From a virus, in IMG/VR virus record IMGVR_UViG_3300006793_005564, positions 1 to 40,519 of that record: a stretch of 40,519 nt of DNA. One strand, given 5' to 3'. Below the pieces are notes generated by a model, which did no database searches, was not told the origin of the DNA, and saw nothing but the letters and a program-made list of their open reading frames with translations. Shown here in pieces: positions 3-32,444 of this stretch. A program made the position numbers and the translations under genes. Within the stretch, counting starts at the first letter, position 1; each line of letters starts with the position of its first letter.

Positions 3-806
3 ATTAAACAAGGTATGAAAAAAGAAGTTAGTATATGCTTCTCAGATTTGCGTGGCTTCACCCCACTAGGAGAAAGTTTTGGTGATGATGTTCAAGGACT
101 AACAAAAATAATGAATGGTTACATGGATGCCATTACACAGCCTATACTTGATGCAGACGGAATGGTTATTAAGTATATAGGCGATGCAAGTATGCACATA
201 CATAATGCACCAATGGACGATCCTAATCATCCTGCAAGTGCTGTGAAAACAGGAATACTTATGCTTAGAGCAGTAGAGGAATTCAATGATAAAATTGTTA
301 AAGAAGGCAGACCGCCAGTTGGTATGGGTGCTGGTATTAATACTGGGCTCGGTTATATTGGAGAGATGGGCTCCACTGCAAGACACAGTTATGATATACT
401 TGGCGATGCTGTAAGTACTGCGGCAAGAATAGAGAGCAAGTGTAAGGAATATGGTTGCTTGTTGTTAGTGGGAGGAGACACTTACAAGCACACAAAGAAT
501 CAATTCTTTTATCTTAAAGTAGATGACCTTGCAGTAAAAGGAAAGACTGTGGGTATTGAAATATACACAGTACTTGATCTCAAAGTAGACAAATATGCAG
601 GTGCAAAACAACTACACGAGGACATGCATATGAATTATCGTAAGCAAAATTTTGATAAAGCAATTAAATTATGTGAGCAACTACATGATGCCTTTGAAGG
701 CAAAATGAAAGGTTATTATGATATGTGGATTGAACGTTGTGAATTTCAAAAGACTCAAAAACTTCCTAAAGATTGGGACGGTGTATTTATAGCAACGTCT
801 AAGTAA
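3..806 (+). CDS. Class III adenylate/guanylate cyclase, probably 5'-truncated by the window edge
   Basis: Class III nucleotide cyclases make cAMP or cGMP from ATP or GTP. Numbered from the ATG at base 15, the catalytic domain fills residues 1-195. Visible motifs are FSDLRGFT (metal Asp11), KYIGDASM (purine-selecting Lys53, metal Asp57), INTG, and YDILGDAVSTAAR (Asp127, Arg138). The Asn that normally precedes this Arg by four residues is Ser134. The C-terminal 70 residues resemble a short TPR-like tail ending in DWDGV, as in bacterial CHASE2-type cyclases (recalled, not searched). The ATG has no properly spaced Shine-Dalgarno. The frame is open to the left edge, and the preceding codons (I-K-Q-G) look like the usual lead-in to the first cyclase strand, so an N-terminal sensor part may lie outside the window. 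Lys plus Asp favours ATP. Family is secure; activity and true start are not. Confidence 0.85.
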   Translation: MKQGMKKEVSICFSDLRGFTPLGESFGDDVQGLTKIMNGYMDAITQPILDADGMVIKYIGDASMHIHNAPMDDPNHPASAVKTGILMLRAVEEFNDKIVKEGRPPVGMGAGINTGLGYIGEMGSTARHSYDILGDAVSTAARIESKCKEYGCLLLVGGDTYKHTKNQFFYLKVDDLAVKGKTVGIEIYTVLDLKVDKYAGAKQLHEDMHMNYRKQNFDKAIKLCEQLHDAFEGKMKGYYDMWIERCEFQKTQKLPKDWDGVFIATSK

Positions 807-18354: not shown

Positions 18355-19965
18355 ATGCCTAGAGGAACCGCGGATACTAGTTTAGTCAAACCTGCTAATC
18401 AGATTTTTGACTATGATGCAAAAACTATACTAGAATTTAAACAATGTGCCGACGAAGTAGACGGTCCGCTATACTTCATGACAAACTTTATGGCGATACA
18501 ACACCCTACTAAGGGTAATATGTCGTTTGAACCGTTTGATTATCAGTTAGACCTCATAGCAAATTACAATCATTACAGATACAGTATCAACATGTTGGGT
18601 AGACAGATGGGTAAAACCACTGTAGCCGCAGGATACTTGCTATGGTATGCAATGTTTAAGCCAGACAGTACAATACTTGTTGCGGCTCACAAAGCCGTTG
18701 GTGCAAGTGAAATTATGCAACGTATACGATATGCATATGAAAGTTGTCCTGATCATATCAGAGCAGGTGTAATGGAATACAATAAAGGTAGTATTACTTT
18801 TGATAATGGTTCACGTATTGTTAGTAGTACAACCACTGAAACTACTGGACGTGGTATGTCCTTAACACTTGTATACTTAGATGAGTTTGCATTCGTTAGA
18901 AATACTATTGCAAAAGAGTTTTGGACCTCACTATCACCGGCATTAGCAACAGGTGGTAAGTGTATTGTTACTAGTACACCAAACAGTGATGATGATACTT
19001 TTGCAACTATTTGGGCAAATGCAATAAACACTTTTGATGAATACGGTAATGAATCAGAAGATGGCACAGGAAGAAATGGATTTAAAGGATACAAAGCAAT
19101 TTGGGACCAACACCCAGACAGAGACAGCACATGGGCGGCACAAGAACGTAACAGTATAGGCGAAGAACGTTTTAGACGTGAGCATGAATGTGAATTTGTT
19201 ATTTACGATGAAACACTGATTAGTTCTTTAAAATTAGTAGACATGAAAGGCACAGATCCAATTAGAACAATGGGACAAGTGCGTTGGTATAAGCATCCAC
19301 ACCCAACATGCACTTATGTAATTGGACTAGATCCGAGTACAGGAACAGGCGGTGACGCCGCAGGTATACAAGTTATAGAATTGCCTACTATGGTACAAGT
19401 TGCAGAATGGCAACATAACCTAACTCCGATCGAAGGGCAAATGAAAGTAATGATGGAAATAATGCAGTACTTACAAGAACTGCAAGTAGCACAGATATAT
19501 TGGAGTGTTGAGAACAACAGTATAGGCGAGGCGGCACTTGTTGTGATCAGAGACACTGGAGAAGAAAGTTTTCCAGGAGACTTTTTGCATGAGCCTAAAA
19601 AAGTTGCAGGTAGACGTGCAAGAAAAGGTTTTCATACAGCACATAGAACAAAAGTAGAAGCCTGTCTAAGTGCTAAACGTTTAATAGAGCAAGATAAAAT
19701 TACACTTAATAGTAAACCTTTACTGTCAGAGTTAAAAAACTTTGTTGCTAAAGGTAACAGTTTTAGTGCTAAACCAGGAGAACATGATGACTTAGTTATG
19801 TCTCTGATGCTAACAATTCGAATGATCAATTTTATTGCTACATTCGAAGATGATGTGTTTACAGCAGTTAATAGCACACTTGCAAATCCAAACGACTATG
19901 GAGATTACGATCAAGATTGGGACGACAACGACGATGACGGTCCTATGCCACTTGGTATACTTTGA
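18355..19965 (+). CDS. gp17: Terminase large subunit gp17-like (packaging ATPase and nuclease)
   Basis: gp17 pumps DNA into the prohead and cuts it at headful. The ATPase domain has Walker A GRQMGKTT (residues 82-89), Walker B VYLDE (173-177) and the coupling motif VTSTPNS. The RNase H-like nuclease domain has VIGLDPSTGTGGD with Asp326 as the first metal ligand, an acidic YWSVENNS segment, and HDDLVMS (477-483) with Asp478 or Asp479 as another ligand. The length, 536 aa, is near T4 gp17 (610 aa) and apparently complete. The ATPase motifs make this one of the most secure calls in the window. Confidence 0.96.
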   Translation: MPRGTADTSLVKPANQIFDYDAKTILEFKQCADEVDGPLYFMTNFMAIQHPTKGNMSFEPFDYQLDLIANYNHYRYSINMLGRQMGKTTVAAGYLLWYAMFKPDSTILVAAHKAVGASEIMQRIRYAYESCPDHIRAGVMEYNKGSITFDNGSRIVSSTTTETTGRGMSLTLVYLDEFAFVRNTIAKEFWTSLSPALATGGKCIVTSTPNSDDDTFATIWANAINTFDEYGNESEDGTGRNGFKGYKAIWDQHPDRDSTWAAQERNSIGEERFRREHECEFVIYDETLISSLKLVDMKGTDPIRTMGQVRWYKHPHPTCTYVIGLDPSTGTGGDAAGIQVIELPTMVQVAEWQHNLTPIEGQMKVMMEIMQYLQELQVAQIYWSVENNSIGEAALVVIRDTGEESFPGDFLHEPKKVAGRRARKGFHTAHRTKVEACLSAKRLIEQDKITLNSKPLLSELKNFVAKGNSFSAKPGEHDDLVMSLMLTIRMINFIATFEDDVFTAVNSTLANPNDYGDYDQDWDDNDDDGPMPLGIL

Positions 19966-26671: not shown

Positions 26672-28246
26672 ATGAAAGTAAGTAAAATGTTGGTAGCACT
26701 AGGTCTTCTGAGTGTGATATTGATTCCAACAAATCTGATAGCAGAAGAAATAGAAGAAGTAATAGTTGTTGGGGCAACTGTTCAAGAAACAGATACTGAC
26801 GCAACACAAGAAGTATCTTTAATAGAAGTACTAATGCCAGCTCAGCCTGATATCCCAGGTGGATATGGTGGGTTTGCAGGATACAACGAAAGAGGTGCTC
26901 AAACAGTACATTCTACAATTTATGTAAATGGTGTACCATCAAACGATTCTGGATCTGGCTGGTATGACTTTGCTCATGACTTAGCAACTGGTTCTGAAAA
27001 AGTAAAAGTAGTAACCGCACCAAACGGTGTTGCTTACGGCTCTGGTTCTTTAGGCGGTGCTGTTTTTATAACAGACTCATTTGAAACAGGTGCTACTGTA
27101 AGGTACGGCGATGAACACGAGTTTGTTAACTTACAATATGGTGAGGAAGACCTCGGGTTCAGTTTAACATCATTTGATGTTAACAATGGTAGTGTTAGGA
27201 CAGATAACGAAGAAGATGACTACTACAATAATGTTTCTGCAAAAGCAATGTTTGATGCAGGTTTGTTAGATGTTGTAGTTACTTATTCAGACTATGAATA
27301 TGATTATGATAATTGTTATACTGCTAGTTTTACTCAGAGTAACGATTGTTTACAAGCAGGTACAAGAGGTACAATAAGTGCTAGGAATGATAATGTAACA
27401 ATTGGTTATACATTCAATGATTCCGAATACTTTACAGAAGGTGTTGCAGGCACACTAAATGAATCAAGTAGATTGTATATCGATACAAGAAGGTCTAAGA
27501 CATTTGGTAAAGCAACTATAACATATGGTTCAACATTAGATCAAGAACAATACAACGAGTACGAGCAAAACAACTCGAGTGCATACTTGTTATCTAACTT
27601 TGGTGCATTTGATATTGGTATTAGAGCGTCAAGTGATGCAACTGTAGTTAGAGCAGGTTTTGAAAAGAATGGTTGGTCAGGTAGTATTGGTAGTAGTTTT
27701 AGGAATCCTGGTCTTTATCAGTTGTATGGTGACTCGTGGGTCCAAGCAAACTCTACATTACTTCCTGAAGAAGCAGTAGGTGGAGAGATTGGATATTACG
27801 GTATTACTGTATTTAGATATAACTTTAGTGAAGGTATCGACTATGATTCACAGAGCTATATGTACATGAACACAGGTAGTTATGCTACTGAAGGTGTAAG
27901 GTATAATAACACGTTTGCTATTCCTTATGGTGGATTAGACATAATGATCGGCTATACAAATAGTGATCAGCCTAGAATACCTGAATGGAAAAGTGCCATC
28001 AATGCATTTTTTACTGTAGGTAACTGGCGTTATACATTTACTCATTCTACTATGCTAGACAGAGAACCAAGTTTATACGATACATCACTTGACAATATTC
28101 AGGCACTTGACTTTAATGTTTCAAGAACATTTGGTCGTTTTAATTTAGCAATGCATGTACAAGATGTATTTGATGATGAGTACGAAGTTTTACCAGGATA
28201 TGGTGCCGGTGGCAGAAGTTTTGTATTGACAGTAATCTACAAATAG
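26672..28246 (+). CDS. Phage-encoded TonB-dependent outer-membrane receptor (BtuB-like)
   Basis: TonB-dependent receptors import scarce ligands such as cobalamin, iron complexes or sugars. Residues 1-24 are a signal peptide ending LIA. EEIEEVIVVGAT (25-36) is a TonB-box-like start. The plug (45-135) includes NERGAQTVHSTIYVNGVPSND and APNGVAYGSGSLGGAVFITD, classic plug strands. The rest is beta-barrel with many alternating aromatic/polar strands. The C-terminus VQDVFDDEYEVLPGYGAGGRSFVLTVIYK matches the BtuB-type end, although the last residue is Lys, not Phe. At 524 aa it is shorter than E. coli BtuB (614 with signal), but frame and both termini are intact. Two Cys near residues 216-228 may make a loop disulfide. 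AGAGG precedes the ATG. The ligand is unknown. Confidence 0.87.
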   Translation: MKVSKMLVALGLLSVILIPTNLIAEEIEEVIVVGATVQETDTDATQEVSLIEVLMPAQPDIPGGYGGFAGYNERGAQTVHSTIYVNGVPSNDSGSGWYDFAHDLATGSEKVKVVTAPNGVAYGSGSLGGAVFITDSFETGATVRYGDEHEFVNLQYGEEDLGFSLTSFDVNNGSVRTDNEEDDYYNNVSAKAMFDAGLLDVVVTYSDYEYDYDNCYTASFTQSNDCLQAGTRGTISARNDNVTIGYTFNDSEYFTEGVAGTLNESSRLYIDTRRSKTFGKATITYGSTLDQEQYNEYEQNNSSAYLLSNFGAFDIGIRASSDATVVRAGFEKNGWSGSIGSSFRNPGLYQLYGDSWVQANSTLLPEEAVGGEIGYYGITVFRYNFSEGIDYDSQSYMYMNTGSYATEGVRYNNTFAIPYGGLDIMIGYTNSDQPRIPEWKSAINAFFTVGNWRYTFTHSTMLDREPSLYDTSLDNIQALDFNVSRTFGRFNLAMHVQDVFDDEYEVLPGYGAGGRSFVLTVIYK

Positions 28247-29718: not shown

Positions 29719-30212
29719 AAATATTAACAGTAGAAGACGTACCATACGAACTTGATACAGTACCGGAGCAGATTGACGATTTAAGATATTGTGCTCTTGA
29801 TGCCTCGGATAAAGAGTGGGTAGACTTCTTCTTTTTACCATTGATCTTTTTGGAGAGTTTTTATGCTCCTGCAATTTGTTTGCAGATAGGTGAACATAAG
29901 GTCCAAATGCCAATGGATTGGAGCATACTATTATGCGACGAGGATATGGGAGGAGTTGAAACTATCCCATTAGCAAGTTTAAATAATAGGGGATTTAGAG
30001 CATTGTCAATGAATCCAATGAGTAACAGAATACCTGATAGTTTAGATGTAACAATAACCAACATATATCAAGACGTAAAATGGTTCTTTCCTAAACTTAA
30101 ACATGGACATCTTTTAGCAGTACCTCTAGAAGATAAGAAAAGTCCTAAGTGTGTATTCTTTGTTAAAGAATTAAATAAGGTACAAGACTTTGATATAGGA
30201 GATTTAATTTAA
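29715..30212 (+). CDS. Unknown conserved-looking protein, 165 aa
   Basis: I do not recognise a named function. It reads as a compact soluble domain: WVDFFFLPLIFLESFYAPAICLQIGEHKVQMPMDWSILL in the first half, then ETIPLASLNNRGFRAL, and DVKWFFPKLKHGHLLAVPLEDKKSPKCVFFVKE at the end. The hydrophobic segment near residue 40 is broken by charges, so it is not an obvious membrane helix. The start overlaps uvsW (ATGA) and the stop overlaps metK (TAATG), so it is co-translated with both. Confidence 0.75.
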   Translation: MKILTVEDVPYELDTVPEQIDDLRYCALDASDKEWVDFFFLPLIFLESFYAPAICLQIGEHKVQMPMDWSILLCDEDMGGVETIPLASLNNRGFRALSMNPMSNRIPDSLDVTITNIYQDVKWFFPKLKHGHLLAVPLEDKKSPKCVFFVKELNKVQDFDIGDLI

Positions 30213-31309
30213 TGTATGAATTTACTAGTGAGAGTGTCAGCAGAGGACACCCAGACAAAGTAGCAGATGCTATTAGCGATGCTGTAGCAACATATCTTAT
30301 TGATGGTAATACTAATCATAGAGCGGCAGTTGAAACACTTGTAACAACTAATATGGTTACTCTTGCAGGAGAATATAAAAGCGACAAGTTTAGCAAAGAT
30401 GTAATTGCACAAATTGTTAGAGATACTGTAAAAAAGATTGGTTACGAACAAGACGGTTTTCATTGGAAACATTTAAAAATATATAACGAGTTACATGGTC
30501 AGTCGCCTGACATTGCAATGGGGACAGATGATTTTGGTGCAGGTGACCAAGGACTTATGTTTGGGTATGCATGTGATGAAACTCCTAATTATATGCCAAG
30601 TGCAATTTACTACAGTCATAAGATTCTCCAAGCATTAGATGATGCTAGGGCGGCCGGTGATGGTGATTGGTTAGGCCCGGATAGTAAAGCACAAGTTACT
30701 TTTAATTATGATAGTGTAGGAAAACCAACAGGCATTAAAACTATTGTATGTAGTACACAACATAGTGATGATGTAAGTACACAAATGGTTAGAGATAATG
30801 TTGAAACTATTATTAGAGAATGTGTTGGTAGCGATTACAACCTGTCAGAGACAGAATTTTTAATTAACCCAACAGGCAGATTTGTAATTGGAGGACCAGA
30901 TGGAGATAGCGGTGTTACTGGAAGAAAAATTATTGTGGATACTTATGGCGGGTATGCTCCACATGGTGGGGGTGCATTTAGCGGTAAGGACTGTACTAAA
31001 GTCGACCGCTCAGCCGCATATATGGCTCGCTACTTGGCAAAGAACATTGTAGCAACAGGCAAGGCAAAAAATGCCACGGTACAATTAAGTTACGCAATTG
31101 GTGTTAAACAACCAACTAGTGTATATGTATATGCAGACGGAGAAGTAAGAAAAGAGTTTGCAGACTACTTTATGGACAATATAGATCTTACTCCAAAAGG
31201 TATTATTGATAGGTTTAAACTATTTGATATAGATTTGACAACTACTACAAACTATGGACACTTTGGTAAAGAAGAAATGCCATGGGAAAAGGTAGAGTTA
31301 AAACTATGA
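30212..31309 (+). CDS. metK: S-adenosylmethionine synthetase (MetK-like)
   Basis: MetK makes SAM from methionine and ATP. The hallmark motifs are all present: GHPDK (residues 12-16) near the start, GAGDQGLMFGYA (109-120; the methionine-site loop), GGPDGDSGVTGRKIIVDTYGG, and GGGAFSGKDCTKVDRSAAY with the phosphate-binding loop. At 365 aa it is slightly shorter than E. coli MetK (384 aa), but no motif is missing. The first codon overlaps the preceding stop (TAATG). It is followed, with overlaps, by apt and a MTA/SAH nucleosidase, so all three are probably co-expressed. Early expression is likely from the promoter at 28226. Confidence 0.95.
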   Translation: MYEFTSESVSRGHPDKVADAISDAVATYLIDGNTNHRAAVETLVTTNMVTLAGEYKSDKFSKDVIAQIVRDTVKKIGYEQDGFHWKHLKIYNELHGQSPDIAMGTDDFGAGDQGLMFGYACDETPNYMPSAIYYSHKILQALDDARAAGDGDWLGPDSKAQVTFNYDSVGKPTGIKTIVCSTQHSDDVSTQMVRDNVETIIRECVGSDYNLSETEFLINPTGRFVIGGPDGDSGVTGRKIIVDTYGGYAPHGGGAFSGKDCTKVDRSAAYMARYLAKNIVATGKAKNATVQLSYAIGVKQPTSVYVYADGEVRKEFADYFMDNIDLTPKGIIDRFKLFDIDLTTTTNYGHFGKEEMPWEKVELKL

Positions 31310-31866
31310 GCATCAGCACAGTAAACATAGATTTAAAAAACCATATTAGAACAGTATCCGGATTTCCTAAAGCAGGTATTGAATTTAGAGACATAACAAG
31401 TTTATTAGAAAATCCAAAAGCATTTAACAAATCACTAATGGATTTAACTGGACTTGCAATGAGTTTTGGTGCTGATAAAATTGTTGGTATCGAAAGCAGA
31501 GGTTTTGTATTCGGGGCACCGCTTGCCAGAGACTTAGAAGTGCCTTTTGTAATGGCAAGAAAGCCAGGCAAGTTACCCGGACAATGTTACACCCAAAGTT
31601 ACGACCTAGAATATGGTAGTGCAAGTTTAAGTATACAATGTAACACATCAGTACTAAGCACTGACAAAGTTATAATCATAGATGACTTAATTGCTACAGG
31701 CGGAACAGCAATAGCCTGTGCTGATATATTATACAATGCATTTGATGTTGCTAAAGAAAATATTTTAGTTTTAGCACTAATAGACTTGCCCGATCTGGGA
31801 GGAAGTGCTATAATACAAGAACAAGGTTACAATGTAAAGACATTGATTGAATTTGAAGGCGAGTAA
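31306..31866 (+). CDS. apt: Adenine phosphoribosyltransferase (Apt-like)
   Basis: Apt converts adenine and PRPP to AMP and pyrophosphate. From the ATG at 31306, which overlaps the metK stop as ATGA, the protein has 186 aa, near the E. coli size (183). The N-terminus KNHIRTVSGFPKAGIEFRDI is the Apt hood. KIVGIESRGFVFGAPLA (59-75) is the base-binding region, MARKPGKLPG follows, and VIIIDDLIATGGT (122-134) is the PRPP loop. An upstream GTG-type start at 31282 would lie inside metK and adds nothing recognisable. The neighbouring nucleosidase would release adenine, its substrate. Confidence 0.95.
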   Translation: MSISTVNIDLKNHIRTVSGFPKAGIEFRDITSLLENPKAFNKSLMDLTGLAMSFGADKIVGIESRGFVFGAPLARDLEVPFVMARKPGKLPGQCYTQSYDLEYGSASLSIQCNTSVLSTDKVIIIDDLIATGGTAIACADILYNAFDVAKENILVLALIDLPDLGGSAIIQEQGYNVKTLIEFEGE

Positions 31867-32444
31867 TGAAAAATATTATTATTATGGCACTAGAGGCCGA
31901 AGCACCAAACATGGCAGAGTGGGAAAATGTATTTTTTACTGGTGTTGGTAAAGTTAATGCGGCAATCACAACTGCTAAGTTATTAGAACGTTATCCAGAT
32001 GTAGAAAATGTTTTTAACTTTGGAACAGCAGGTGGCATAGCACCTAACCTTTCAGGCATACACAAGATGGGCAATTTTGTACAACGTGATATGTTGTGCT
32101 GTCCGTTTGGAGTACCAGAAGGCCAAACACCATTTGAAAGTTACACAAAGTTAACATTTGATTATGAAGCACTGACATGTAGTACAGGTGATAACTTTGT
32201 TACAGATAGCAATTTATCTATTCCAGCAGATGTTGTTGATATGGAAGCCTATGCAATAGCAAAAGCAGTATTAGTTGCAGATTGTGAACGAGGTGATACA
32301 GACGAAGCAGACTTTATAAAGTTTCATTGTTATAAATATATCAGTGACGAAGCAGACGAAAGTTCAAAAGACGATTGGCAGAATAATGTTGCAGACGGTG
32401 AAGAACATTACATTAAAATTTATAAGGAAATAGTTAATGGCTAA
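31866..32444 (+). CDS. mtnN: Methylthioadenosine/S-adenosylhomocysteine nucleosidase (MtnN-like)
   Basis: This family hydrolyses methylthioadenosine, S-adenosylhomocysteine or 5'-deoxyadenosine to adenine plus the ribosyl product. The three catalytic residues of E. coli MtnN (Glu12, Glu174, Asp197) have counterparts: the Glu pair in MALEAE (10/12), Glu127 in VVDMEAYAIAKA, and Asp161 in YISDEAD. TGVGKVNAA (25-33), NFGTAGGI (51-58) and STGDNFV also match. The length is 192 aa against 232 in E. coli; the middle is shortened. The start overlaps the apt stop (TAATG). It completes a SAM to adenine to AMP salvage route. A general purine nucleosidase is the alternative; the motif set favours MTA/SAH. 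Confidence 0.87.
   Translation: MKNIIIMALEAEAPNMAEWENVFFTGVGKVNAAITTAKLLERYPDVENVFNFGTAGGIAPNLSGIHKMGNFVQRDMLCCPFGVPEGQTPFESYTKLTFDYEALTCSTGDNFVTDSNLSIPADVVDMEAYAIAKAVLVADCERGDTDEADFIKFHCYKYISDEADESSKDDWQNNVADGEEHYIKIYKEIVNG

Follow-up and report, generated by a model that had tools for sequence, protein, structure and literature searches.

An open frame at the left edge of a virus record encodes the catalytic end of a phage CHASE2-type membrane cyclase whose active-site region differs as a block, at seven or more positions, from those of its cellular relatives and of many of its phage relatives. As far as the sample shows, this active-site type arose once, inside phages; it is carried on very different sensors, and in the same virus population the gene closes a row of curli genes. 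The original prediction, a class III nucleotide cyclase with Ser in place of the transition-state Asn, was right, and the observation is larger than was then stated.

The Window Gene and Its Catalytic Domain

The window, by which we mean the whole 40,519-base linear virus record analyzed, opens with a frame of 267 codons (positions 3–806) that runs off the left edge, with no stop ahead of the window start. The frame matches PF00211 at 60.8 bits, against a curated cutoff of 21.9 (E = 1.7e-16). An AlphaFold2 model of the fragment (pLDDT 93.0, pTM 0.90; 39-row alignment) is predicted to adopt the class III fold: the top solved-structure match is P. aeruginosa CyaB (3r5g; Z 27.2, rmsd 1.8, 189 aligned), and S. 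platensis CyaC (1wc3) matches with Z 26.1 and rmsd 1.7 (187 aligned). Residues are numbered from the ATG at window position 15, an internal Met and not the gene start; the 5′ part of the gene lies beyond the contig end. On this numbering the protein has D11, K53, D57, D127, S134, and R138 just where the original prediction placed them. The features are as follows.

3–806, + strand: 3′ part of a phage CHASE2-type membrane class III cyclase gene (open frame, PF00211, in-frame extension in relatives)
15–581, + strand: catalytic domain, residues 1–189 of the 263-aa frame (AlphaFold2 model, 3r5g match)
168–173, + strand: Ile52-Lys53; the base-recognition Lys is kept, and the relatives' preceding Asp is Ile
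183–203, + strand: metal Asp57, then Ser59-x-His61-x-His63 on strand β3 (Ile/Ala/Trp in most relatives)
387–395, + strand: Ser125-Tyr-Asp127, including the base-selecting position (Asp-Tyr-Ser/Thr in most relatives)
414–416, + strand: Ser134, replacing the transition-state Asn
426–428, + strand: Arg138, the transition-state Arg, kept
582–803, + strand: C-terminal helical tail, last residues DWDGVFIATSK

The tail of the window type is common to most cellular CHASE2 cyclases and absent from the type found in Pelagibacter phage HTVC008M. Rfam and tRNA scans returned nothing.

The description of the virus as T4-like stands only broadly: it encodes a T4 gp15-type protein (PF16724), but its terminase (18355–19965) is closest (60%) to those of PA5oct-type large Pseudomonas myophages. 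This PA5oct-like terminase is unlike those of the Kyanoviridae records that bear known curli modules, and the curli module of this population thus sits in a distant phage lineage. Elsewhere in the window are a TonB-dependent receptor plug protein (PF07715, 5.8e-08; 26672–28246) with a signal peptide apparent by eye, which would be an outer-membrane protein made during infection and possibly serves receptor masking; a single row of SAM synthetase, phosphoribosyltransferase (APRT-like by eye), and PNP_UDP_1 nucleosidase-like genes (30212–32444) that looks like methyl-cycle and adenine salvage; a 4′-phosphopantetheinyl transferase-like protein (PF01648; 25031–25411); a lipoprotein-like protein with an FG-GAP repeat (PF13517; 35308–36774); and a serine hydroxymethyltransferase (PF00464; 39222–40364).

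The Full-Length Protein in the Same Virus Population

Two contigs, L002 and L003, carry a domain 100% identical to that of the window, and in both the frame continues for 428 further codons before a stop, the leftward in-frame extension for which the original prediction had proposed looking. L002 matches the window at 99.87% over 5,285 nt. L410, a longer cut of L003's contig, matches at 99.96% over 2,765 nt and so belongs to the same virus population, from which the missing part of the gene can be read. The full-length cyclase (L003:4735–6789, 685 aa) combines CHASE2 (PF05226, 5.9e-33) with PF00211 Guanylate_cyc (1.2e-15), in the order one TM helix, CHASE2 sensor, three TM helices, cyclase, and C-terminal tail; hydrophobic segments span residues 1–29, 309–338, 337–356, and 359–380. 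The N-terminal membrane or sensor part that had been supposed missing is accordingly present in these near-identical contigs: in L003 and L410, beyond the window itself, CHASE2 lies between TM helices and N-terminal to the cyclase. The full-length model has pLDDT 89.3 and pTM 0.69; in BFVD the closest structure, matching over the whole length at 39% identity, belongs to an uncultured phage.

Two simpler accounts of the frame were discarded. The 428-codon extension rules out a short soluble cyclase with ATG 15 as its start. A broken gene or assembly artifact is ruled out by the uninterrupted frame of the relatives that reach the start—with one exception, L014, whose frame is broken inside the sensor—and by a catalytic dN/dS of 0.07.

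Active-Site Residues Switch as a Block

We call proteins with Asp127 and Ser134 S-type, and those with Ser or Thr at 127 and Asn134 N-type. Viral relatives came from five scans (the best 80 of 178, the best 80 of at least 585, and the best 80 of 134, plus 46 and 76), and cellular relatives were the best 80 of at least 573. These 423 loci, 419 of them with a cyclase, gave 319 distinct proteins (239 phage, 80 cellular), a set in which contigs recur and partial copies may count as separate proteins. Among the matches listed, 149 phage proteins have Ser at position 134, and Asn occupies it in 88 phage and all 80 cellular proteins, with two phage rows lacking that column. Position 127 is Asp in 149/149 Ser134 proteins and Ser or Thr in 168/168 others; Ser134 is accordingly found in 149/149 S-type proteins and in 0/168 others having the column. 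Across the same 319 distinct proteins, D11, K53, D57, and R138 are invariant wherever the column is filled.

These counts bear out the predicted conservation of the metal Asp pair, the Lys, and the Arg, and the predicted Ser at 134, now seen to be fixed throughout a phage clade. Two of the original emphases shift. Asp127, listed as a conserved residue, is present in the window protein, but its own family of CHASE2 cyclases otherwise carries Ser or Thr there. And Ser134, presented as the change, is real but is one of at least seven positions in the active-site region that switch together. In a catalytic-only alignment of 305 distinct rows, again among the matches listed, positions 52/59/61/63/125/127/134 read I-S-H-H-S/G-D-S in 138 of 141 S-type rows, and the remaining three agree wherever letters are present. 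N-type phage and cellular rows read D at 52, I/V/L/Q at 59, A/C/G at 61, W/F/Y at 63, S/T at 127, and N at 134, with position 125 variable. No intermediate between the two strings was seen against the 141 S-type rows among these matches. The Ser-x-His-x-His motif could serve something besides plain cAMP synthesis.

A Single Origin Under Purifying Selection

To place the S-type we used a tree of the catalytic domain with the seven switching columns removed (104 rows). S-type domains group together as one clade (SH-aLRT 98), next to a sister set of seven N-type phages (SH-aLRT 99 for the two together). The tree has long cellular branches, two of which meet, a warning sign, and we take from it no more than the S clade and its sister. 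The full-length tree was set aside for this purpose because sensor and catalytic parts have different histories; in it, L267 and L268, with an N-type catalytic part and an S-clade sensor, fall inside the S clade.

A cellular donor of the S-type domain was sought with the A3 profile, which scores S-type domains at 301 to 507, N-type phages at 139 to 363, and cellular CHASE2 cyclases at 145 to 254. No cellular S-type was found in 398 genomes from the phylum of G001 and 148 from the phylum of G003; these scans cover two phyla, with at most 6 candidates per genome scored in one set. The best score in the 546 bacterial genomes, 238 bits, lies within the ordinary cellular range, and a cellular source was set aside on this evidence.

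Median dN/dS is 0.07 for the catalytic part (303 pairs) and 0.14 for the sensor part (100 pairs). Such strong purifying selection speaks for a working enzyme.

Probable Catalysis Without the Conserved Asn

Four residues before the catalytic Arg, where class III cyclases typically carry Asn, the window protein has Ser134. The Asn is reportedly essential in the mammalian cyclase, to go by the title of work by Yan from 1997. We compared 113 distinct cellular class III domains from 118 loci, about 20 of them of CHASE2 type (a few of these from genomes already among the 80 cellular relatives) and part of them selected for a higher share of Asp at 127. Of those carrying Ser, Thr, or Ala at this position, 83/83 have the Asn, as do 27/30 of those with Asp; the three exceptions, close relatives of one another, have Val or Ile instead. 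None of the 113 has Ser at 134.

The Asn-Arg pattern is typical of class III and not defining: M. avium Ma1120 has the Lys and the Asp, carries Ala where the Asn would be, and still makes cAMP as an active adenylyl cyclase; introducing the Asn (A164N) cuts its efficiency on ATP about tenfold, with kcat/Km going from 1.25 to 0.13 in the printed units (PMC4215837, available portion). Because Ma1120 is active with Asp and without Asn, loss of the Asn need not kill an enzyme; with Asp at 127, the Asn appears dispensable. Asp127 and Ser134 may then be parts of one functional switch and, by analogy with A164N, an S134N change may well reduce S-type activity. We infer both points from a published enzyme, a small set of cellular domains, and one event in phages; since the Asp127/Ser134 pair has a single origin, it counts as one event, not as replicated coupling.

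Two other readings of the altered site were weighed here. The S-type domain might be catalytically dead, with a structural role as sensor or scaffold in the curli apparatus, as the lost transition-state Asn, the several altered residues of the active-site region, and the lack of a PF00027 receptor in the viruses (0/20 records) would allow. We consider this fairly unlikely, since no row with the column has lost the metal Asp pair, the base Lys, or the catalytic Arg, dN/dS is 0.07, the catalytic part is much more conserved than the sensor, and Ma1120 works without the Asn. Alternatively, the site might make another cyclic nucleotide (cGMP, cCMP, or cUMP), perhaps avoiding host cAMP receptors or phosphodiesterases; the base-selecting position 127 does switch in a block with six more positions, with no intermediate relative to the 141 S-type rows. 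A different product is nonetheless unlikely, in our judgment: Lys53 and Asp127 correspond to the Lys-Asp pair that specifies ATP in the cyclases of PMC4215837, whose available text gives guanylyl cyclases a Glu in place of the Lys.

Catalytic Domains Are Exchanged Between Sensors

The S-type domain behaves as a swapped output cassette: the sensors that it is attached to differ widely, and the change from one part to the other falls sharply at the linker. Among the matches listed, full-length S-type proteins form 6,216 pairs, 4,440 of which have catalytic domains at least 75% identical; in 3,019 of those 4,440, the sensors are less than 40% identical. Between the window type and the cyclase of Methylophilales phage Melnitz, identity climbs from ~28% to ~88% between alignment windows starting at −80 and −20, just ahead of the catalytic domain. 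The reverse case also occurs: S-type L304 and N-type L355 have 86% of the sensor in common and 46% of the catalytic domain. Similar catalytic domains on divergent sensors, together with this reverse case, indicate that the output domain has been exchanged between sensors. A natural domain swap is also seen in L267 and L268, which join an N-type catalytic domain without the tail to a sensor related to that of S-type proteins such as L048.

The Cyclase Closes a Curli Gene Row

The window ends before the neighboring genes are reached; in L410, from the same population, the upstream row comprises CsgF (PF10614), CsgG (PF03783), a curlin-type protein found by curlin profiles with no Pfam match of its own, FecR (PF04773), a 498-aa ORF, a second curlin-repeat protein (PF07012), and three small ORFs, followed by the cyclase. 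The cyclase is thus the last gene of a csgF-csgG-curlin-FecR-curlin row. The 498-aa ORF (L410 3871–5367), between FecR and the second curlin gene, has no Pfam match.

We scored this row with profiles grown from Melnitz and HTVC008M proteins, taking one locus per distinct cyclase and requiring 5 kb or more of upstream sequence. Among the matches listed, CsgG and FecR are each found in 82/84 S-type loci, and in 27/31 and 28/31 N-type phage loci, respectively. Cellular loci give 0/50 for CsgG and 11/50 for FecR, both lower bounds because the profiles come from phages. One more phage locus, with an unreadable motif, also has the curli row. Membrane sensor cyclases of this kind, beside curli genes, are thus carried by many marine phages.

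A phage curli, FecR, and cyclase module is already known from pelagiphages: the available text of PMC9599517 reports CsgF, CsgG, CsgA/B, FecR, and adenylate cyclase in Pelagibacter podo- and myophages and proposes a cAMP–curli link and an alphaproteobacterial origin of the module. PMC7029224 and PMC9004378 describe curli genes, and the word "cyclase" is absent from both main texts.

A Proposed Receptor Cyclase Reporting to the Host

The original prediction had also offered interference with cyclic-nucleotide defense. PADLOC models of the Pycsar cyclase PycC do match the catalytic domain (E = 8.4e-16), but they match only within the catalytic domain common to class III cyclases, the gene sits in a curli row and encodes a membrane receptor with a CHASE2 sensor, and a PADLOC scan of 13 neighboring proteins found no adjacent Pycsar effector. 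A Pycsar-like role is therefore highly improbable, and this part of the prediction is not supported.

We think it probable, by a modest margin, that the domain is the output end of a phage membrane receptor cyclase: an adenylyl cyclase working as a homodimer, through which envelope or curli state is sensed and relayed to the host as cAMP. The CHASE2 sensor is predicted to be periplasmic and would sense envelope state or the phage-made curli apparatus, either the curli pore or the FecR protein; gene order makes the exported FecR-domain protein the probable sensing partner. The homodimeric S-type domain would convert ATP to cAMP, perhaps more slowly or under different regulation, and a host receptor would read the signal. 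FecR or curli sensing with a cAMP report is proposed by analogy with S. meliloti, whose CHASE2 cyclases, in the available text of PMC13001267, raise cAMP through the outer-membrane barrel NsrA and a CRP-type regulator. Each of 20/20 virus records has one PF00211 gene, which fits a homodimer; a heterodimer with a second phage cyclase was not seen in these records, which may be fragments. The reader of the cAMP signal is the weakest link of the proposed mechanism: a cyclic-nucleotide-binding PF00027 protein occurs in 0/20 virus records, so the receptor would come from the host or from another family. A rise in host cAMP, as first suggested, is plausible.

Discussion

Among the closest known systems is the pelagiphage curli (T8SS), FecR, and cyclase module of PMC9599517, which has its gene row and kind of cyclase in common with the window population. 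The window virus differs from those pelagiphages in its PA5oct-like terminase and in carrying an S-type cyclase, not the HTVC008M type; the main text of that paper contains none of the terms CHASE, catalytic, active site, or asparagine. The cyclase of Melnitz (gene 104 of MZ577097) shares 75% identity with the window protein over the domain and has the S-type active site and, as in the window population, a place downstream of csgF, csgG, curlin, FecR, and curlin; its sensor shares only ~32% identity with that of the window type. The main text of the Melnitz paper takes up the curli pore and never uses the word "cyclase." The HTVC008M protein (KC465899) is a CHASE2 cyclase in the same gene row but is N-type (Ser127, Asn134), lacks the C-terminal tail, and is 37% identical.

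Alphaproteobacterial CHASE2 adenylyl cyclases (most of loci L164–L243; S. meliloti CyaD1/D2/K in the available text of PMC13001267) have the architecture of the phage protein, and most of those listed share a tail ending WDGVF.AT.K. The cellular CHASE2 cyclases differ in having Ser/Thr127 with Asn134 in 80/80 and CsgG upstream in 0/50 of the matches listed. Ma1120 (4wp8, 4wp9; available portion of PMC4215837) is, like the S-type, a natural class III cyclase with the base Lys and Asp and without Asn, but it is cellular and has Ala instead of Ser; its PDB chains, which cover the catalytic domain, match the fragment model with Z 21.6 and rmsd 2.2 (165 aligned).

A cyclase in such phages is thus known, whereas a phage-only, all-or-none active-site type with cassette-like spread was not found described. 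The variant was not found in print, the main texts of PMC9599517, PMC9004378, and PMC7029224 included, and literature searches on CHASE2 in phage curli or guanylate cyclase in Pelagibacter phages returned no paper; one on a cAMP receptor in Pelagibacter gave a single, unrelated paper. More tentatively, the S-type may be a phage-evolved class III catalytic type: a block of seven or more changes absent from the cellular proteins compared, a base-recognition mode that makes the transition-state Asn unnecessary, possibly a new Ser-x-His-x-His ligand site or product, and an interchangeable cassette on many CHASE2 sensors in the phage curli operon. This broader reading is possible, if somewhat doubtful.

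For published phage curli operons, the available texts propose functions without test and leave open how they are controlled. With a conserved receptor cyclase closing the row, of a phage-only type swapped between sensors, there is a concrete handle on whether these phages signal with cAMP, and the S-type is a natural test of class III catalysis without the Asn reported to be essential in mammalian enzymes.
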